Part shown: piece by piece, positions 25,139-36,982 of the stretch
Numbering within the stretch: the stretch's first letter is position 1
Layout: each line of letters opens with the position of its first letter
NCBI GenBank assembly: GCA_034928305.1
Contig: JAYFOZ010000002.1
Span: 124,001-188,000 of the forward strand
Reading direction: 5' to 3'
DNA length: 64,000 bases
From: Methanomassiliicoccaceae archaeon
GTDB taxonomy: Archaea; Thermoplasmatota; Thermoplasmata; Methanomassiliicoccales; Methanomethylophilaceae
Translations under genes and position numbers: made by a program
Notes under the pieces: model-generated
The model's database searches: none
Seen by the model: only the letters and a program-made list of their open reading frames with translations
What the model was told of the DNA's origin: nothing

Positions 25139-25308
25139 TATGTCTCCTTGCAGTATTATGTTAAGTTCTCTATTTATCTTTTGATTCAAACAAATATTTT
25201 AACAATATTTTGTTCTATAAATTATTTTTTTAACTGCCAGTGTTTTTCAAAGAATGTATATTAACCATGTGAAACCGTCTTCTCGCTTAATTGTGCTTAT
25301 AGGATGTG

Positions 25309-27840
25309 ATGTTAATGGAAGAAGATCCTGCAATGTTATATGAAAAATGGTTCAGTAATTTGGACGATTGGCAAAAGGATCTATTCAACAGGCTTATGGA
25401 TGAAGACCTGACTGAAGATGAACAGAGGTCTTATTTTAAGACTTATATTGACAGTGGACCATTAAGAACTGATAGGCCTCAAATCAGTTTTGGAGTTCAT
25501 TCCAGTTCTTTAAAACGACTTTTAGGAATTTATAATATCGAAAACGTAGGTAAGATCAAAAATCCAGAGGGAATCACATTCCGTGAAGACAGTAATGTTT
25601 GTTTATTGTTTGGCAATAATGGTTGTGGTAAATCAACACTTATCAATTTACTCAAAAATGTCTGTGGATCCAGAGATGCAAAGAAAGTACGGAGTAATGT
25701 TTTTGAAGAACCAAAATCGCCTAGTGCGTCTATTTCATATCTGGCAGATGAAAAAAGATTGTTCAATTGGACCCCCGATGCAGTGTGCCCAGATATGGTC
25801 GGATTACAATTTTTTGATTCTAATTATTATCGCGTATATGAGAAAACCGGTGCAGAAATATTATTGGAGCCCAAATTATTGGCGGTTCTCGGCGAGATGG
25901 CGATATCTTTCAATTTATTCAAATCATACATCATTAATGAAAAATCTGAACTTAAAAAAAGCATTGTCATTCCTGAGATATTTAAAGAAACCAATGTGCA
26001 TAAACTGTACACACAAGCCACAAACACTGAGACACTAGATGAGATCAAAGAACAATCTAAACTCAGTCCCGAAGAAGAATCGGAACTTGAATCAATCGTT
26101 TTGTCTTTATCTTTGTCAGATCCATCTGCGAGCGAGAGAGACCTGGAATCAGCAATCAGTTATCTCAATGGTTTTTCAGACATTATGGAGAATTGGTTTG
26201 ATCAATATTCTGATGAAAAGCGAAACGATTTAATCAAATTAAAGGAAAAATGTATAGCTTTTGAACTTGCTGTAAAACGGGCAGAAGAAGAATTTGGAAG
26301 TACCGAATTCAATGGTTTAGGAAACGACGTATGGAAAGCCCTATGGGAAGCTGCAAAGGATTATTCTGAGAAATATGCATATCCTAATATTATATTTCCC
26401 AACACTGAGGATGGATCGCGATGTGTTCTATGTCAACAAACACTTTCAAATGATGCGCAAAAACGTTTCGTATCCTTTGAGGAATATATTACATCTGACG
26501 TAGAGAAAAGTTTAAAGAAAGCTCAAACAGAATTAGCTGATGTAATGCCAGAGCCTATTTGGGAGTGGGATTGCGTCTCTCTACAACTTTTGAAAAATAG
26601 GGTCCCGGAAAGTATTATTGCTAATATACGCATATTTTATGTTCGATTATTTGAAAGATCAAATGAAATCAGGAATGAAAAGAATTGTGAAAGGGAAACT
26701 AAGATCTTTTCATTAGAACAGTTTAATGCTGTTCATGAAAAAGTAATCTCCGAATTAGAATCTAAATGTAGGATCTTTCATGAGGCTTCTGTTCAAAGAC
26801 AAGTTATTGAAGAAAAGGAAAAATTACTTAGTTCAAGAAAGTGGTTCTCTCAGAATGAGTATGTTTTCGATCGTAAAAAGAAAATGATAAAATTAAACAA
26901 TTTCAACACAGATACACATAGCACTTCTGTATTGAAAACGAATTTATCTGCGATCTTGATAACAGATAAATTTGTGGAACAATTCAAAAAAGAATTGGAG
27001 TCGATCAGGGCAAAAAATCTCCAGGTCGAATTAAAAATAGCAACCAGCAAAGGTTCTTCTGCCCATAGCATATCGTTAAAGAATTTAAATAGCTCATCAA
27101 AGGGGCTATCTTTCGGTGAGGTTCTAAGTGAAGGAGAAAGAAGGGCTGTGTCGTTTGCAGCATTTGTTGCAGAAATCATTGTTGATTTTCCACAGATGCC
27201 TCTGGTGTTTGATGACCCAACAAATTCAATGGATAACAAATATGAGGCAGAAATAGCAAAAAGAATAATAGAGTTGTCAAAAGAAAGACAGGTCATAGTG
27301 TTTACACACCGGATTACGATGTCATCGCTGCTTCATTCAATAAGAGGAGGACAATCATTTAACTGTCAGAGATTGATGTCTGAACCAGTTGGTTTAATAA
27401 GTTCTGATGTATCATTTATCTTAGGTGGGGCCAAATCGAATGTAAAGACATTGATCAAAGAGGCGGAAGAAATCAAAAAATTGTCTCCGAAAGAAATGCC
27501 CTCTGCGAAAATCAATCTCGCGATAAAAATTAGAAGATTATTGGAATTAATGATAGAAGATGTTCTTTTCGACGGCATTGTGAAAAGGCACAATCTCAAT
27601 GTGGGATCCATGAGACTCCCAAGGATGTTAGGTGTGAGAGATGAAGATTTTACCTTTGTCGATGAGATGATGAGTCGATATAGTTCTGATCCTCATTCTC
27701 AATCTGCTGAAGCTGCTTATGCTGAGTTTGATGTACAGGATATGATAGATGATTTGAAGAAAATAAAAGAACAAATCGATATCATTGAAAAGAATAAAGA
27801 GGACTGTGCGAGTTCTTTGAGGGTCTCAACACAGTTATAA
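25309..27840 (+). CDS. Zinc-hook SMC/RecF-like ATPase, probable defence gene
   Basis: 843 aa. Walker A is FGNNGCGKSTL at about 103-110. A long helical region is broken by a zinc-hook-like CVLCQQ at about 373-376. The ABC signature VLSEGERRAVS is near 608 and Walker B is LVFDDPTNSMD near 633, followed by VIVFTHR. A helical C-terminal region of ~140 aa has R-X5-H (RYSSDPH) but no nuclease motif I can name. It resembles RloC/PrrC-type and other AAA_13 defence ATPases. It is divergent from the Pycsar pair, with AT-rich coding. Confidence 0.75.
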   Translation: MLMEEDPAMLYEKWFSNLDDWQKDLFNRLMDEDLTEDEQRSYFKTYIDSGPLRTDRPQISFGVHSSSLKRLLGIYNIENVGKIKNPEGITFREDSNVCLLFGNNGCGKSTLINLLKNVCGSRDAKKVRSNVFEEPKSPSASISYLADEKRLFNWTPDAVCPDMVGLQFFDSNYYRVYEKTGAEILLEPKLLAVLGEMAISFNLFKSYIINEKSELKKSIVIPEIFKETNVHKLYTQATNTETLDEIKEQSKLSPEEESELESIVLSLSLSDPSASERDLESAISYLNGFSDIMENWFDQYSDEKRNDLIKLKEKCIAFELAVKRAEEEFGSTEFNGLGNDVWKALWEAAKDYSEKYAYPNIIFPNTEDGSRCVLCQQTLSNDAQKRFVSFEEYITSDVEKSLKKAQTELADVMPEPIWEWDCVSLQLLKNRVPESIIANIRIFYVRLFERSNEIRNEKNCERETKIFSLEQFNAVHEKVISELESKCRIFHEASVQRQVIEEKEKLLSSRKWFSQNEYVFDRKKKMIKLNNFNTDTHSTSVLKTNLSAILITDKFVEQFKKELESIRAKNLQVELKIATSKGSSAHSISLKNLNSSSKGLSFGEVLSEGERRAVSFAAFVAEIIVDFPQMPLVFDDPTNSMDNKYEAEIAKRIIELSKERQVIVFTHRITMSSLLHSIRGGQSFNCQRLMSEPVGLISSDVSFILGGAKSNVKTLIKEAEEIKKLSPKEMPSAKINLAIKIRRLLELMIEDVLFDGIVKRHNLNVGSMRLPRMLGVRDEDFTFVDEMMSRYSSDPHSQSAEAAYAEFDVQDMIDDLKKIKEQIDIIEKNKEDCASSLRVSTQL

Positions 27841-29540: not shown

Positions 29541-30941
29541 ATGAACATGCCGGATTCCAAGAAGAACGTACAGGTCGCCAACGAGAATGAATTGTTTCAG
29601 AGAGCATTGGACGGCCTCCTAGGGACCGAAAAGAAGGGCTATCCCAGTTTTATCGGCGGCATGATGATCGCATCCGGTAACGATTACGAGCTCACAAGCC
29701 CCATCGACAGGTCGATAATATTCGGTAATTTCCAAATGCCTGAAAAGGGGACGGTGGCGGCGGCAGTCAGCGCAGCCTCCGGTTCATCAGAGGGCTGGTC
29801 GTCCAAAACACGTTCCGAAAGGGCGGAGATATTCCGCGACGTCCTGAACAGGGTCAAGGCTCAGAGATACAGGCTAGCGGCATGTGTCATGATCAGTACA
29901 GGGATGGTTGTAAAGGACTGTCTAGCGGAGGCCGACAGGCTTGCTGAAGTCATAGAGCAGGCATGCGATGCCGACGGCCATAAGGGTTCTTCCATCGGAG
30001 TATGGGGAGTGGTATCGGAGCACAACTCGCCCCTGGCATCGCCTGCCGGATTCGCGTCATGCGCGATGATAGCAGGGAATACGGTAGTGAGCGTTCCGTC
30101 CAAGGACTGCCCCATGCCGATGTTCATGTTCAACAGCATCCTCACGGCGGCCGGTCTGCCTGTCGGCGTATTCAATATCACGGTAGCCCGCGGTCCGGAA
30201 TCGGACAGGGAGCTGGTAGACGATATGACCGTCAGGGGGCTCGCGGCATCGGGAAGCGGGGACAGGATGGAGGAGCTGATCTTCCTGCCCGTCGACGATG
30301 GGCTGAAGTTCATAAACGAGATCAAGGGAATGAACCCGATCATGGTCTACAGGCCGGGAGACCTCAGGAACGTCGCTTCGAACATCATCGAATCGGCTTT
30401 CAGGAGCTCGGGCCAAAGGATCCATTCATGCTCCAAGGTCATCGTAACGAACGATGAGAGGGATAAATTCATCTCGGCGATAAAGGAGGCCGCCAAGTCC
30501 ATCAAGGTCGGGGACCCGGCGGAACCCGGCATCACGGCCGGTCCGCTGATGAGCGAGGAAGATCTCGATAGATTCGAGAATTACATAGTGGAAGCTGGAG
30601 ACAATGTTATATTCGGAGGCAGAAGGGTAAAAGGCCCGGGCCTTGAAAACGGAAGCTACGTGACTCCCGCAATCGTCGTCGGGCTGACCGACGACTGTGA
30701 GCTCGGGAGCTTCGACACGGGGCTGCCCATATTGACAATAGTATCCGTATCCAACTTCGACGAAGCGATGGAAGAGCTAATGAACACAGAATGCGGGCAG
30801 TCTGCATCGATATTCTCAAAGGACGTCAACGCACTGGCAAAATTCGAGGAATTCGCCGATGCTCCGCACATCAACGTGAACAAAGGCACCGAAGAGATGC
30901 TTCCGGCCTTGGACGCAGCGATAGGGAAATTCCTGGCGTGA
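29541..30941 (+). CDS. Aldehyde dehydrogenase superfamily protein lacking the usual catalytic Cys
   Basis: 466 aa with the ALDH fold: Rossmann region GVWGVVSEHNSPLASPAGF, TAAGLPVGVFNIT, the Glu-bearing EIKGMNPIMVY near 260, and GQRIHSCSK at 291. The family motif G-Q-x-C would place the nucleophile at residue 294, which is Ile; the nearest Cys is 297. Either Cys297 serves instead or the protein is not a normal dehydrogenase. It ends one base before the stop of the oppositely oriented radical SAM gene and lies close to the acetyl-CoA synthase cluster. Confidence 0.8.
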   Translation: MNMPDSKKNVQVANENELFQRALDGLLGTEKKGYPSFIGGMMIASGNDYELTSPIDRSIIFGNFQMPEKGTVAAAVSAASGSSEGWSSKTRSERAEIFRDVLNRVKAQRYRLAACVMISTGMVVKDCLAEADRLAEVIEQACDADGHKGSSIGVWGVVSEHNSPLASPAGFASCAMIAGNTVVSVPSKDCPMPMFMFNSILTAAGLPVGVFNITVARGPESDRELVDDMTVRGLAASGSGDRMEELIFLPVDDGLKFINEIKGMNPIMVYRPGDLRNVASNIIESAFRSSGQRIHSCSKVIVTNDERDKFISAIKEAAKSIKVGDPAEPGITAGPLMSEEDLDRFENYIVEAGDNVIFGGRRVKGPGLENGSYVTPAIVVGLTDDCELGSFDTGLPILTIVSVSNFDEAMEELMNTECGQSASIFSKDVNALAKFEEFADAPHINVNKGTEEMLPALDAAIGKFLA

Positions 30942-31637
30942 TCAAAGCCCTCTTACGGAGACCCTCTTCACGTAAGGCTTGGCCGCGTCGTGCATAGCCC
31001 TGAGCTCTTTTACGGAATAGGGTTTTACCTTGCCCGCTTCGGGGTCCAATGTGATTTTGGGACGGAACTGCTGGATGCAGAATCGTTCCGCACCCTTCAC
31101 AGACCTGGCTATGTCCACGACATCTTCATGGGACAGGACTCCGGGGTATACGGTGGTCCTGAACTCATATCCAACTCCGGAGTCCATTATCAGGCAGATG
31201 CTCCTCTTTATAGCGTCGACATCGCCGTATCCGCCCGTCGCCTGCCTGTACTTATCAATTGCGAGCGGGGCTTTTATGTCCATGGCAACATAGTCGACGA
31301 GCTTGGCACCGATTATATCGTCCAGCACTTCCGGAGAGCTGCCGTTCGTATCGATTTTGATCCCGAGGCCCATTTTCTTGATTTCTTTCAGAAATTGGTA
31401 AAGGTCCCCGTTCAAGGTAGGCTCCCCTCCGGAAATGACCACTCCCTCGAGGAAATCGCTGTTTTCGGCGATATATCTAATGACCTCATCCACATCCACG
31501 TGCTCGCATGTCCCTTTTGCAATCTCGGGATTGTGGCAGTAAGGGCAGGAAAAATTGCAACCGGCAAGGAAGACAAGGCAGGAGACCTTTCCGTCCCAGT
31601 CAGAAAGCGTGGTTTTTATGAATCCCCCTATCTTCAT
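30942..31637 (-). CDS. NrdG-like radical SAM activating enzyme
   Basis: About 231 aa. The [4Fe-4S]/SAM motif is GCNFSCPYCHNPE, and the start MKIGGFIKTTLSDWDGKVSC is the usual opening of the archaeal anaerobic ribonucleotide reductase activases (TIGR02495 group). GGEPT and DIKAP are present. It would install a glycyl radical on NrdD or a related enzyme; no such partner is in the window. The ATG at 31637 is chosen from family similarity. It is divergent from RACo, 80 bases apart. Confidence 0.85.
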   Translation of the reverse strand: MKIGGFIKTTLSDWDGKVSCLVFLAGCNFSCPYCHNPEIAKGTCEHVDVDEVIRYIAENSDFLEGVVISGGEPTLNGDLYQFLKEIKKMGLGIKIDTNGSSPEVLDDIIGAKLVDYVAMDIKAPLAIDKYRQATGGYGDVDAIKRSICLIMDSGVGYEFRTTVYPGVLSHEDVVDIARSVKGAERFCIQQFRPKITLDPEAGKVKPYSVKELRAMHDAAKPYVKRVSVRGL

Positions 31638-31717
31638 GAAAAGGGTATGGCCACGTGCTCTATTATCGGTTACGGTGTGAAGTGCAGTGATTAATAAAAG
31701 AATTACAATATTCCGGC

Positions 31718-33271
31718 ATGGCTCCGAGAATCGTCCGTTTCTATCCGATTGGCAAAGAGGTTGTGGTGGACGGAACACAGAAGATAGTCGATGCCGCAAA
31801 ACTGGCAGACATAGATATCAAATTGCCCTGTGGCGGCAAGGGACGTTGCGGACGTTGCGTTGTATACGTAACGGAAACGCCGATGGACAAGAAATCCCCG
31901 GACCCCAACGGTATGGAGCGCGTGCTCGCATGCCAGAAATACGTTACGAACGATATCGATGTATTCCTTCCGCTCGATGAGGACGGTCGGATAGTCGCCG
32001 GGGAGGACCGCAGGAAGGCATACGAAGGAAAGCTCCTGCCGGTGGTAAAGGCGCGCGGAAAGACACAGCTGGGTCTCGCGGTCGATCTCGGAACGGCAGC
32101 GATAGCGGTCAGTATCCTCGATTTAAAGAAGGGCAACGAGCTATATTCGACCGTCGGGGACAACCCGCAGTCGTTCGCCGGGGACGATCTCGGGTCGCGC
32201 AGAGCGTATGCAGAAAAAATGGGAGATGAAGTTCTCAGAAAAGCGGCGATAGACCGTATCAACGATCTCATGTACATATTCGTTGACGACCCAGAGGATA
32301 TCAAGGCCGCGGTAATATCCGGAAAACCCTTCCTAATGGAATCGCTCACGGAAGTTTGCAGCATGGCGGAGGGGCCCTTCTGCCTCGGAGGCACCGAACT
32401 GGGGCTCAGTATAGCTAAAGATGCTCCGACCTATGCGGTAAAGGACATATCGGATGAGGTGGGCGGAGATCTCATCGGCGGGATAATCGGATCCAACATG
32501 GACATTTCAGAAATGAAGATCCTGCTTGTCGACCTGGGGTCGACCGTGCAACTGGCACTTGGCAACAGGGAAGGGGTGGCAGTATGCGCTTCGGAGTCAG
32601 GGCCAGCCATCGAGGGAGGTAATGTCACGTTCGGAATGACCCCGTCCATCGGGGCTATAGACAGCGTAATGTTCAGGCGCAAACGTCTAAACTACACCGT
32701 GATCGGAGGAATCCCTCCGACCGGTATCTGCGGATCGGGCCTAATAGACCTTCTGGCACAGATGTTCCGTAACGGCCTGGTGGACGCCGATGGTAAATTC
32801 ACGAAGAAAGCGAAGGTTTTCCAGTCGGAGAAGGGGAGAGCTTTCCCCCTAACCGACAAGATATACGTTACCGAAAGCGACATAGCATCAGTGATCAAGG
32901 CGAAGGCCGCGGTGTTCGCAGCCGTGCGTGCCTTGATGGAATATGAAGGGACAAAACCCGAAGATGTATCTAAGATAGTGATATCGGGAAGCTTTGGAAA
33001 TTTCATCAATGCCGATAATGCGATATCGATAGGAATGTTACCGGATGCAGACCGCGAAAAGTACGACTACCTGGGTAATGCATCAATGACATATGCCAAG
33101 AACGTCCTGCTTTCGGAGGATGTCAGGAACCGTGCCGACGAAGTGCGCAAGAGAATCAGGGTAATGGACACGCACAACGAGATATACGAAACGGAATTCC
33201 GCGACGCGTACTATCTGCCAAACAGGAAGGATGGAATATTCCCGCCTATCAAGAAGAAATTTTTCAGGTGA
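31718..33271 (+). CDS. RACo/AcsV-type corrinoid activation ATPase (ferredoxin + ASKHA)
   Basis: 517 aa. The N-terminal [2Fe-2S] ferredoxin has C38, C44, C47 and C72 (LPCGGKGRCGRC … LACQ). A linker is followed by an ASKHA ATPase domain (DUF4445) with GLAVDLGTAAIAV, LLVDLGSTVQLAL, GICGSGLIDLL and ISGSFGNFI. Such proteins use ATP to reduce inactive Co(II) corrinoids to Co(I). In acetogens the gene (acsV) sits in the acs cluster and serves the corrinoid iron-sulfur protein. Here it precedes a CooC homologue by four bases. It could also serve methylotrophic corrinoid proteins. Confidence 0.88.
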   Translation: MAPRIVRFYPIGKEVVVDGTQKIVDAAKLADIDIKLPCGGKGRCGRCVVYVTETPMDKKSPDPNGMERVLACQKYVTNDIDVFLPLDEDGRIVAGEDRRKAYEGKLLPVVKARGKTQLGLAVDLGTAAIAVSILDLKKGNELYSTVGDNPQSFAGDDLGSRRAYAEKMGDEVLRKAAIDRINDLMYIFVDDPEDIKAAVISGKPFLMESLTEVCSMAEGPFCLGGTELGLSIAKDAPTYAVKDISDEVGGDLIGGIIGSNMDISEMKILLVDLGSTVQLALGNREGVAVCASESGPAIEGGNVTFGMTPSIGAIDSVMFRRKRLNYTVIGGIPPTGICGSGLIDLLAQMFRNGLVDADGKFTKKAKVFQSEKGRAFPLTDKIYVTESDIASVIKAKAAVFAAVRALMEYEGTKPEDVSKIVISGSFGNFINADNAISIGMLPDADREKYDYLGNASMTYAKNVLLSEDVRNRADEVRKRIRVMDTHNEIYETEFRDAYYLPNRKDGIFPPIKKKFFR

Positions 33272-33275
33272 TATA

Positions 33276-34028
33276 ATGACAATCATTGCGTTAGCGGGGA
33301 AGGGCGGCGTAGGGAAGAGCACAATAGCATCACAGATGGTGAGAAAATTGTCGGTCAGAGGTTCTGTTCTGGCAGTGGATGCCGACCCGAACTCCAACCT
33401 GTGCGACAAGATCGGGATTGAAAAAAAAGGAACAATCGGCGAGCTCAGGGATGAGATAATAGCGGACCCAAGCAAGGTGCCATCCGGGCTGAGCAAGCAG
33501 CAATATGTATACGACCAGGTTCAGAGGGCTATGACGGAAACAGAATCCGTAGACCTTCTGATCATGGGAAGGCCGGAAGGAGAGGGCTGCTATTGCTTTA
33601 TCAACAGCGCCCTTAAGGAATGTTTCGTCAAACTGATCCCGAATTATGATTTCACGGTCGTAGACAACGAGGCTGGAATGGAGCACATGTCCCGAAAGGT
33701 CCTTCCGCAGGCGGACGTGTTCCTCTTCGTTTCGGATCCGACGGTCACCGGCATCAAAACTGCGGGACGTCTTTCCGAGCTTGCCGAAGAGGTTGGCATA
33801 GAGATCGGAAGGAAGATCCTCATAGTGAACAATGTTACCGGCGGGCTTGCCGAAAGACTGTCGGACGCGGCGGCAGAAGCGGGTTTCAATGAAACGTTGG
33901 CCTTCCCCCGCGATCTCTTCATAACAGAATCCGCGATGGAGTCCGAAGTGCTGGATGTACCCGACGATACGCCCTTCGGGAAATCAATAAACAAACTGCT
34001 GGCACTTATTGTCAGAGAGGTCTCATGA
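33276..34028 (+). CDS. CooC/AcsF-type nickel insertion ATPase
   Basis: A 250-aa MinD-family P-loop ATPase. The deviant Walker A is AGKGGVGKST at 7-16, and the metal-binding C-X-C is in GRPEGEGCYCFIN (C105, C107), the hallmark of CooC. The family loads nickel into CO dehydrogenase (CooC) or the acetyl-CoA synthase A-cluster (AcsF). The ATG at 33276 follows GGTGAT; the frame is open upstream inside the RACo gene. Its 3' end overlaps the acetyl-CoA synthase gene tail-to-tail by 17 bases. Confidence 0.9.
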   Translation: MTIIALAGKGGVGKSTIASQMVRKLSVRGSVLAVDADPNSNLCDKIGIEKKGTIGELRDEIIADPSKVPSGLSKQQYVYDQVQRAMTETESVDLLIMGRPEGEGCYCFINSALKECFVKLIPNYDFTVVDNEAGMEHMSRKVLPQADVFLFVSDPTVTGIKTAGRLSELAEEVGIEIGRKILIVNNVTGGLAERLSDAAAEAGFNETLAFPRDLFITESAMESEVLDVPDDTPFGKSINKLLALIVREVS

Positions 34029-36042
34029 ATATTGATGGATGTTCTTTTTCGTAAAGCCATCTTTCCAAAGACCCAGCATCCTCAGCGACGTTTTCATCGG
34101 CGATCTTACAATAAAGTTCCGCTCCTCCGGCAACGTTGAATGCTTTGCGCAACGGTTCCCCCAGAACCGACTTGAGGCGCGAGCTGATCCACGATATGCG
34201 CTCCAGTCCCCCGTCCCCCCTCAGAAAACTGCCGGACAAGATGTAATGCTTTCCGATTCCCATAAATCCAGGGTGCTGTCCGCCCCTTCCAACAATCGCA
34301 GAGACGTCGGAAAACGAATATCCGGACGGATTCCTTCCCAAGTCTGAACGGTCAAGCAAAATAATGGATCTGCGGTCGGCAGATAAAACAACGGCAACTT
34401 CCATGCAGCTGCATGTGGTCATAGGCGAGTCTGCAACACTGTGCATGCAGACCCTTTGTATCGATCCCATGGATGTTTTGCTTACAACTTCATTTGCACC
34501 GCTCCATTCTCCCTTTTCGGCGTCAAGGAGGACCCCCTTGGGAAAAGGTCTTTGAGGGCCTCCCGGATTAAGCTCGCCTCCAACTCTTGCATCCGTCCAG
34601 GTCACTGAACCGCATACGCTCGGACGTTCCGGCGAGATAATGCAGATATGGCCCGGGGCGTAGCTCTGGCATATAGTGCATGTGTAGAACGAATCTACAT
34701 TCTGGTCGGTGAGGCCGACTATATTGAAGTCCCGCATTTCGTAACGTCTCCTCGCCTCCGAGATTCCCGATGAAACATCCGAAGGATCGGAAGAGAATTT
34801 CACTTCTACCGATTCTGCCACCGCTGCGAAGTTGTCCTTGATATCGCAAATGATATTATGTCCCAGTTCTTCGAATGTAAGCCCCTTGTCCACCGCGACA
34901 TTGCCGACGCGCATCCACATATTATCTCTCTGTCCGCTGTGCCAGACCCCCTCGGTACGACTCAACGCGAAATGGATGCGACGTTCGACCGCCTGTTCCA
35001 TCACAGGGTCCACATCGCCGGAAAAAAAGACTTCGACAGATAGGTGGTGACCTCCCTGTTCCAATTCCTGAATATCTTTTCCTACGATTCTAACTCTGCC
35101 GTCCTCTGCTTCTCCGGACGATATTGCAATCTCATAGGAGGAGGGAGCATCGGGCCCTCCGAACTCGAGACGGGCATCAGCCTTCCTTATGCGTTCATTC
35201 TCGAAGGCGGATCCAGAGCGGATGCATCCGCTTTTTGGGAATATTATCCCGCGACCGGCCATTGCTCCGGCGGCCATGTTTTCATAAAGATTTTCGGAAA
35301 GTCTAGGAATGCTCGGAAATCCTAGGGAATCGGATACGATAAATGCGCCGGCAACGGCGGCAGAGAAGATTATTGTCACATCGAGTATAGTAAGCCTGCC
35401 GGTATGTATCACGATCAGCTTTGGTTTTTTCTTAAGATATTTTGCCACGGAGGTCTTGTTGCCCGGTTCCGCACCGCCAAACCTTAAAGCTACACGGGAG
35501 ACCAACCCATTTACGCCCAGGGCCTCTATCCCGCTAAGTCTGAGGACATTGTCCCCTTCTAACTCCATGTCGTAATATTTGTCCGACAGGATAACTATCA
35601 AACCTTTACTGACGCATTCGCGGACCTCATCAATGGAACGGGAATTCGGCTTGCCGATGAATAATGCGATTCCCGGCACTGTTCCTTTGATCAGTCCCAT
35701 CCCGAAAGCATCAAGCCAAGAGTCAGGGACAATATCAATGCCGGCGATGGATGCCAGCACGTCAAACGCCATGGAAGCGTCGGTTCCGAGATTCAGCATA
35801 TTGTCGATTCCCGTCTCGTTTCCTTTCATGAATATCGAGGGAACATCAGAGGCTCTGACGGGCCCCGGGCCCCTCCAGGCATATACGGACGGCAATCCGT
35901 AGTCGGTTCCTTCGCAACACAGGACCCTTTCTCCATGAATAGAAAGTGCAAGATCTATCGCTTCCGCGACCAGTGCATCCCGTCCTCTTTTGAGGCTTTG
36001 GATGTCTCCGGCAGTTTTCGCAAGAATATCCATGAATCCCAT
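34012..36042 (-). CDS. Acetyl-CoA synthase (AcsB/CdhC-type, bacterial length)
   Basis: 676 aa. The six A-cluster cysteines are C455, C458, C467, C477, C544 and C546. Their spacing (3, 9, 10, 67, 2) is that known for Moorella AcsB (C506 to C597), a constant offset of 51. With the same offset W367, W376 and R378 match its CoA-site Trp/Arg residues. A ~300-residue N-terminal domain, absent from archaeal CdhC of ~470 aa, is present. The reaction joins methyl from a corrinoid, CO and CoA. No CODH or corrinoid Fe-S protein gene is nearby. It directly follows the ACT gene. Confidence 0.9.
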   Translation of the reverse strand: MGFMDILAKTAGDIQSLKRGRDALVAEAIDLALSIHGERVLCCEGTDYGLPSVYAWRGPGPVRASDVPSIFMKGNETGIDNMLNLGTDASMAFDVLASIAGIDIVPDSWLDAFGMGLIKGTVPGIALFIGKPNSRSIDEVRECVSKGLIVILSDKYYDMELEGDNVLRLSGIEALGVNGLVSRVALRFGGAEPGNKTSVAKYLKKKPKLIVIHTGRLTILDVTIIFSAAVAGAFIVSDSLGFPSIPRLSENLYENMAAGAMAGRGIIFPKSGCIRSGSAFENERIRKADARLEFGGPDAPSSYEIAISSGEAEDGRVRIVGKDIQELEQGGHHLSVEVFFSGDVDPVMEQAVERRIHFALSRTEGVWHSGQRDNMWMRVGNVAVDKGLTFEELGHNIICDIKDNFAAVAESVEVKFSSDPSDVSSGISEARRRYEMRDFNIVGLTDQNVDSFYTCTICQSYAPGHICIISPERPSVCGSVTWTDARVGGELNPGGPQRPFPKGVLLDAEKGEWSGANEVVSKTSMGSIQRVCMHSVADSPMTTCSCMEVAVVLSADRRSIILLDRSDLGRNPSGYSFSDVSAIVGRGGQHPGFMGIGKHYILSGSFLRGDGGLERISWISSRLKSVLGEPLRKAFNVAGGAELYCKIADENVAEDAGSLERWLYEKEHPSIFMRPL

Positions 36043-36043
36043 A

Positions 36044-36982
36044 TCAGCTTAGCTCTTTGATTTCCTTAAGGACGAATATGCCATTAAGGGTTTCCAACTC
36101 TTTAGGTAGCACATTGCGTAGCTCGTCTGCGGAAGTTCTACTGGTGCCGATGTCGGCAACGAGTTCAAGGAGCATCCTCTGGTAGCATATTTTGATCTTG
36201 CTGAACACCGATATCAGATTGATGTTCCTTCCTGCAAGTAGGTCGAACGCCTGTCTCATCGACCCCGGATTGTCAGGTACCTCGAACACTAATTTTATCA
36301 GGTTGGTCCCCGGCTTGAAAAATGTGACCGAAAGCATCCAGGAATCTGCGTCTGCTACCACCATGACGTCCCGCCCGTCTATATCTCTGAGTATATCTCC
36401 GTATCCGGGGTCCGTATCGAAGACGCCTCCCCTTAAAGTACAGGGCTCTGCGCGGCGAACCTCTTCCTTCGTGTGATATTCAGTATCGGAGCGGAAAAGG
36501 CGGCCTATCTCGGCGGGTTTGGTAACTATGTGGTCGATCAACGAAACGGATGGGTCGTTGTTGCTCTTCCTCTGTTCGAAATCTTCCAACAGGAGATCGG
36601 CCTCCCCGGCGAAGCTGAGATCGGCCATTATCTTCCAGATTATCACCGTGTCCGAAATTCCGTTCAGCGAGACGGAGTTCAGAATGTTGATCTCGCGTTC
36701 GGCCAGGAACCCGGACGCCTGGGCGCTGGACCCCGGGACATCCTTCATATAGATGGTTATGTGGGTGAGAGTACGGTAATTCTCCTGAGGGAACATCGAC
36801 AGAATTATCTCATAGTCCTTGGGGCCCTCTGCTGGGTATCTGAAAAGCGTGCTGTATACGCACCCGCCGTCCACGAGCCCCATCGTGTCAGAAAGCCATT
36901 GATCTACTCTGATCTTAGTACCCTTGACCTTTGCGAATTCCCAAAATTTCATCGGATCCCTTGAACCCATATATTGCAACAA
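36044..36982 (-). CDS. Double ACT-domain protein of the acetyl-CoA synthase operon
   Basis: About 312 aa from TTG 36982 (an ATG four codons later is also possible). Two ACT-like regions are visible: THITIYMKDVPGSSAQASGF near 90 and LVFEVPDNPGSMRQAFDLLA near 235, each in the beta-alpha-beta pattern with the D-x-P-G turn. ACT domains bind amino acids or other small ligands. The first ~70 residues and the middle match nothing I know. It lies one base upstream of acetyl-CoA synthase, so a regulatory role there is plausible. Confidence 0.7.
   Translation of the reverse strand: MLQYMGSRDPMKFWEFAKVKGTKIRVDQWLSDTMGLVDGGCVYSTLFRYPAEGPKDYEIILSMFPQENYRTLTHITIYMKDVPGSSAQASGFLAEREINILNSVSLNGISDTVIIWKIMADLSFAGEADLLLEDFEQRKSNNDPSVSLIDHIVTKPAEIGRLFRSDTEYHTKEEVRRAEPCTLRGGVFDTDPGYGDILRDIDGRDVMVVADADSWMLSVTFFKPGTNLIKLVFEVPDNPGSMRQAFDLLAGRNINLISVFSKIKICYQRMLLELVADIGTSRTSADELRNVLPKELETLNGIFVLKEIKELS

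Follow-up and report, generated by a model that had tools for sequence, protein, structure and literature searches.

What can an acetyl-CoA synthase (ACS) do in an archaeon that encodes neither of the proteins with which it usually works? The complex of carbon monoxide dehydrogenase (CODH) and ACS is considered one of the most ancient enzyme complexes, and ACS is as a rule treated together with CODH and the corrinoid iron-sulfur protein (CFeSP). The question is raised by a window of 64,000 nucleotides from a Methanomassiliicoccaceae archaeon (assembly GCA_034928305.1, contig JAYFOZ010000002.1, positions 124,001 to 188,000), in which the genes for a RACo-type activator, a CooC/AcsF-type ATPase and the ACS protein AcsB adjoin one another in a genome where no CODH or CFeSP was found. 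Comparison with related loci indicates that this reduced locus almost certainly derives from a complete CODH/ACS cluster of bacterial type, from which genes were lost step by step. The unusual part is the loss, throughout one genus, of CFeSP and of a gene resembling methionine synthase (MetE-like), not the presence of AcsB without CODH as such. With CODH, CFeSP and MetE-like partners all lost, AcsB must either work with different proteins or have taken on a new function.

The reduced module and its AcsB

The features of the locus are as follows, in coordinates of the window.

34012..36042, minus strand: AcsB, acetyl-CoA synthase, 676 aa (CdhC and ACS_CODH_B_C domains, structure-database relatives)
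34405..34680, minus strand: A-cluster ligand cysteines of AcsB (alignment to M. thermoacetica AcsB)
33231..34028, plus strand: CooC/AcsF nickel-insertion type ATPase (P-loop, CXC motif, same locus position in relatives)
31718..33271, plus strand: RACo-type activator with 2Fe-2S ferredoxin and ASKHA domains, 517 aa (Pfam Fer2, Raco_middle, RACo_C_ter)
36044..36982, minus strand: ACT-domain protein directly upstream of acsB (Pfam ACT; likely true start about 36952)
30942..31799, minus strand: radical SAM protein of NrdG2 type beside the module (NrdG2 match of 198.9 bits, above cut-off; probable start near 31637)
29541..30941, plus strand: aldehyde dehydrogenase (ALDH) family protein flanking the module (Pfam Aldedh; syntenic in the family)

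The preliminary description of this DNA had reported RACo, CooC/AcsF and AcsB as adjoining genes, and all three are where it had placed them, with their domains confirmed. RACo has a Pfam Fer2 domain followed by the RACo middle and RACo C-terminal (ASKHA) domains. The CooC/AcsF protein has its likely true start, judged by homologues, at about 33276 rather than 33231, and carries a P-loop (GKGGVGKS) and a CXC motif (GCYCF), as expected of a CooC/AcsF-type ATPase encoded in an acs locus. With acsD and acsC gone, which follow acsB in relatives, the 3' ends of acsB and cooC now overlap by 17 bp; the MetE-like gene that lies between CooC and RACo in relatives is gone as well. The NrdG2-type protein and ALDH stand on the RACo side, both syntenic in the family.

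AcsB scores 112 bits against CdhC and 265 bits against ACS_CODH_B_C (cut-offs 24 and 25), and its best solved relative is AcsB of M. thermoacetica (E=2e-105, residues 106-676 aligned). The A-cluster ligands C455, C458, C467, C477, C544 and C546 correspond to C506, C509, C518, C528, C595 and C597 of that protein. All six are kept in each of the five species of the genus with a full-length AcsB, and they form the only invariant cysteine columns among these five sequences, which are 53-87% identical. The earlier statement that AcsB is complete thus holds for the catalytic domains and the six ligands; it does not hold for CODH_A_N, the CODH-facing N-terminal domain, which gave no match at E<=10 in the three AcsB of the genus that were scanned, nor for the NCBIfam CODH/ACS alpha/beta equivalog, against which the window protein scores 459 bits with a cut-off of 800. 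By these scores it is a homologue too divergent for that equivalog. CODH_A_N was found in five AcsB of related genera, and four of their genomes (G111, G118, G024 and G025; G numbers denote genomes and L numbers genome stretches) lack CooS over cut-off. The predicted N-terminal domain of the window AcsB resembles the ACS N-terminal domain (TMt 0.77) in an AlphaFold model from a six-sequence alignment, of which the N-terminal part alone was used, the C-terminal domain being poor (mean pLDDT 60.8).

Carboxydothermus hydrogenoformans encodes CODH and CFeSP. Its monomeric ACS (PDB 1ru3, 7nyp), homologous to the window protein over residues 107-676, shows that AcsB can exist without bound CODH, but it differs in having the CGCF motif and the F512-type residue. 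The archaeal CdhC, the beta subunit of acetyl-CoA decarbonylase/synthase (ACDS), has the C-terminal catalytic domains and A-cluster in common with the window AcsB and lacks the N-terminal ACS domain (PMC11321310), whereas the window AcsB has a bacterial-type N-terminal domain.

Partner genes in the genome, the genus and the order

The genome, 1.336 Mb in six contigs with the window on contig 2, is 98.9% complete. Contigs 1 and 6 break inside MtbC-type corrinoid genes (L105:2-349, L140:11936-12391, L151:2-349), which indicates that repeated methylamine gene copies are assembly break points. Profile searches of the whole genome for CODH (CooS/CdhA) gave a single Prismane/CODH-family match, a hydroxylamine reductase (HCP), whose scores of 734 bits as hydroxylamine reductase (PRK05290) and 28 bits as CODH led to its rejection as a hidden CODH. 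The CFeSP subunits (CdhD/E, AcsC/D; PF03599) had no match in the whole genome, so that the usual substrate of RACo was not found, and the sole Pterin_bind match, sought for AcsE, is dihydropteroate synthase. Hidden Markov models built from the CooS, AcsC, AcsD and MetE-like proteins of relatives detected no genuine homologue across all genome stretches, their weak matches being HCP and one 259-aa frame that scores about 21 bits with the AcsD profile. The absence of CODH, CFeSP subunits and methyltransferase, as first proposed for the window, is therefore borne out for the window and the whole genome, and no full CODH/ACS set was found elsewhere in it.

The reduced module is kept across the genus. 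None of its five other genomes has CooS over cut-off, a MetE-like gene or a full-length CFeSP subunit, although a weak PF03599 match (5e-13) occurs in G124, a fragmented member 71% complete. The genomes are drafts, one per species, and presence counts were read from search tables; four genomes of the genus at 91-99% completeness agree on the absences, and at the exact syntenic place these genes do not occur. The locus in all six species retains ACT, AcsB, CooC and RACo but no longer has CFeSP or the MetE-like gene; of the marks of a CODH/ACS complex, the genus showed no CODH subunit over cut-off, no CODH_A_N in the three AcsB scanned and no full-length CFeSP subunit. No description of a CODH- and CFeSP-free ACS in this order was found in the open-access literature. 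An identification of the genus with GTDB UBA71 was dropped, since acsC is reported for published UBA71 genomes, and acsD for one of them (PMC10353118).

The view that the order generally lacks the Wood-Ljungdahl pathway, repeated in the preliminary description, is out of date, as AcsB is present in 74 of 147 Methanomassiliicoccales genomes and 25 of 30 genera (see also PMC6147122), some genera of the family being without any AcsB. Among the 68 carriers outside the genus, strong CFeSP matches were found in 66 (the exceptions G050 and G002 are 67% and 73% complete), and the MetE-like gene likewise in 66 (exceptions G050 and G131, 67% and 64% complete). CooS over cut-off is missing from 18 (about 40%) of the approximately 44 carriers that are at least 90% complete, and all of these 18 but the four of this genus have CFeSP. 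ACS without CODH is thus common in the order, and only in this genus does ACS occur without CFeSP. Outside the genus AcsB nearly always lies in a single cluster, which runs ACT, AcsB, AcsD, AcsC and then, on the opposite strand, CooC, a gene of about 340 aa and RACo, with NrdG2 and ALDH after RACo in most family members. The genus has the same order minus AcsD, AcsC and the 340-aa gene. Other acs clusters, for example that of Lake Pavin MALP with CODH/ACS (PMC6147122), share the ACT, AcsB, CooC, RACo, NrdG2, ALDH order and differ in having AcsD, AcsC and the MetE-like gene and, in some, CODH fused to AcsB. By this synteny and these counts, the module is a reduced remnant of an order-wide cluster and not an isolated oddity. 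The ACT-domain protein, possibly an amino-acid sensor, stands beside acsB across most of the order and is the best conserved module member (91-92% identity within the genus, except 79% in G121).

In several lineages CooS and AcsB form one frame of about 1360 aa (L123:6983-11086 in G001, L124:5390-9466 in G004, L125:12017-16090 in G125). We know of no CODH-ACS fusion described before, and a literature search found none. In other genomes AcsB has an N-terminal extension of about 300 aa (L121:9199-12144, L122:13782-16694, L127:10334-13408, L129:8632-11607, L159:1810-4830), which a profile comparison aligns with the C-terminal half of CooS (probability 92.5%, E=5e-7); on inspection of the alignment it is without the CooS cysteine motifs, and it is apparently a decayed CODH domain. 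In the remaining lineages AcsB is a free-standing protein. The order shows a graded series, from a CODH-AcsB fusion, through AcsB behind a decayed CODH domain and CODH-less AcsB with CFeSP and MetE-like protein, to the AcsB of this genus without any of these, and the series is a natural experiment on the parts with which ACS can dispense. A mirror image of CODH-less ACS is seen in another genus (g9, including L165 in G056 and L166 in G072), where CooS over cut-off occurs without an AcsB match.

The gene of about 340 aa (for example L117:12077-13087, L118:12919-13938, L119:12151-13203) was found in 72 genomes, nearly always where AcsB and CFeSP are found. It matches NCBIfam methionine synthase PRK00957 below cut-off (E 1e-5 to 1e-12), and Pfam gave no MetE support, PF01717 failing to match; by these matches it belongs, as a remote relative, with the short methionine synthases and is 'MetE-like' at most, and its protein is a candidate methyl acceptor for CFeSP. 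An internal TGA was flagged in a few matches and in one case, compared by eye, seemingly lies upstream of the start codon. The closest parallel is Dehalococcoides mccartyi, which has AcsB, AcsCD and core-MetE, no CODH and an incomplete Wood-Ljungdahl route (PMC7005905, PMC6113397), and in which acetate is the source of the methionine methyl group, the role of core-MetE being its authors' hypothesis (PMC7005905). The analogy with Dehalococcoides drawn in the preliminary description fits the genus in the absence of CODH and AcsE; the retained CFeSP and MetE-like proteins fit its relatives better, which share AcsCD and a MetE-like gene in the cluster and look like archaeal versions of the Dehalococcoides route. 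Neither AcsCD nor the acceptor of such a route was found in the genus, which differs from Dehalococcoides also in the altered neighbours of the AcsB active site. The graded series suggests that methionine-type methyl metabolism is probably among the functions of CODH-less ACS in many archaea.

Divergence of AcsB and RACo

The four conserved proteins of the module have not changed alike, a point that the first account of the locus had missed. Identity of the genus to other genera, compared with identity among those genera, is 55% versus 54% for CooC and 56% versus 60% for ACT, whereas for AcsB and RACo it drops from 55% to 36-39% (RACo 39%). Stem branch lengths are 1.65 for AcsB (+0.73 across the midpoint root) and 1.98 for RACo, compared with 0.42 for CooC and 0.40 for ACT. 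By these measures the sharp divergence on the genus stem lies in AcsB and RACo, the two module proteins that would be expected to bind to CFeSP, and not in CooC or ACT. In the AcsB and RACo trees the midpoint root falls on the long stem; placement was read from the CooC and ACT trees instead, which together with synteny put the genus inside its family and rule out horizontal acquisition of AcsB.

The changes in AcsB reach the surroundings of the metal site. Other AcsB share 142 invariant positions. At 26 of these all five species differ, and at 15 of the 26 they have the same new residue; other multi-member groups have 0 to 5 such changes. The CGCF that holds the bridging cysteines has become CSCM in all five, the neighbours in the window AcsB being Y461 (F512), S545 (G596) and M547 (F598). 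Of the CO-alcove residues of M. thermoacetica, G145, I146, V149, F229 and F512 (PMC11321310), G145 is G and F512 is Y in all five species, and the others read M/S/T/M/H (I146), I/V/L/V/I (V149) and F/Y/Y/Y/Y (F229). The C-terminal A-cluster domain is the best conserved domain of AcsB (74% within the genus). In RACo the TNGE motif is replaced in the genus. A separately altered AcsB occurs in G025 (L120:7047-9215), with 27 changes at otherwise invariant positions, including F512R and F598M, and also F229M; its ligands, CFeSP and MetE-like gene are kept, and no CooC is found at its acs locus.

Possible roles of the partnerless module

The reading that we favour, tentatively and at a little less than even confidence, is that the module still runs the chemistry of methyl group, CO, CoA and acetyl-CoA with another corrinoid protein. 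CooC would insert nickel into the A-cluster of AcsB, RACo would provide ATP-driven low-potential electrons, and AcsB would exchange a methyl group with a methanol or methylamine corrinoid protein of MtaC, MtbC or MttC type and join it to free CO and CoA, or run the reverse. In vitro, free CO binds to ACS, and free methylcobinamide can serve as its methyl donor (PMC11321310). In the genome, two MtaC, an MtbC and an MttC type are the only methyl-carrying corrinoid proteins found, an additional 576-aa B12-binding protein resembling a radical-SAM enzyme. The in vitro chemistry and the presence of Mta, Mtb and Mtt proteins together favour ACS chemistry with a methylotrophic corrinoid partner. The invariant ligand cysteines, purifying selection on AcsB and an undiverged CooC with its CXC motif support the same view, as do the synteny with three genes cut out, the concentration of divergence in the two expected CFeSP-docking proteins and the ACS-like predicted N-terminal domain. 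As to direction, we lean towards formation of acetyl-CoA from CO captured in the environment, because methyl-corrinoid carries the main flux in this methylotroph and a methionine-type sink for methyl groups has been lost. The genus offers a direct test of whether an ACS can be fed by methylotrophic corrinoid proteins. Several observations weigh against this reading. No partner corrinoid gene is genetically linked to the module, an acetate-CoA ligase-type protein is encoded, so that acetyl-CoA need not come from ACS, and ACS has a published dissociation constant for CO of about 13 uM, a high value if CO is to be scavenged at trace levels. The alcove and second-sphere changes F512Y, G596S and F598M, with the variable I146, may mean that CO chemistry is impaired. 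The ratio of nonsynonymous to synonymous substitution (dN/dS) for AcsB among species of the genus is 0.10-0.22, about 2-5 times that of CooC, ACT and RACo, values (NG86) that are approximate, dS being often near saturation.

The main rival, a serious one though less probable, is that AcsB and RACo have been repurposed, after loss of CODH, CFeSP and the MetE-like acceptor, as a system with a different substrate or with a CO- or acetyl-CoA-sensing regulatory role; RACo would then act on the A-cluster itself and not on a corrinoid protein. The burst of change confined to these two proteins, the 15 invariant positions fixed to a new residue, three of them adjoining the metal site, the replaced TNGE motif and the strong conservation of the ACT protein, a candidate amino-acid sensor, all point this way, but every metal ligand and CooC are kept, the A-cluster domain has changed least within AcsB, and no precedent is known. 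That the two proteins co-evolved into a self-contained, non-Wood-Ljungdahl system without CODH, CFeSP and perhaps CO, for new methyl or acyl transfer or for sensing in methylotrophic methanogens, would be an unlikely outcome. The elevated dN/dS, the small genome, the three partner genes already gone and the family genera without AcsB could also mean that AcsB is a decaying remnant with little or no function, as in reduced gut genomes. This is quite improbable, since the open reading frame is intact in all five full-length species under purifying selection, exactly the six ligand cysteines are kept while every other cysteine column varies, and CooC and ACT are undiverged. It is very improbable indeed that partners were simply missed, either CODH or CFeSP in unassembled parts of draft genomes, as the weak match in G124 might hint, or a HCP homologue serving as CODH. 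An HCP-family CODH candidate has been proposed in a bacterium without canonical CODH, but it was not consistently active when expressed in E. coli (PMC7000372), and the HCP scores, the agreement of the four most complete genomes and the empty syntenic place stand against both versions.

Besides RACo, the genome encodes two RamA-type activators with C-terminal Fe-S domains. Elsewhere in the window, positions 25306-27840 encode a P-loop ATPase of 844 aa that resembles SMC/RecN proteins and has a CXXC like that of a zinc hook.

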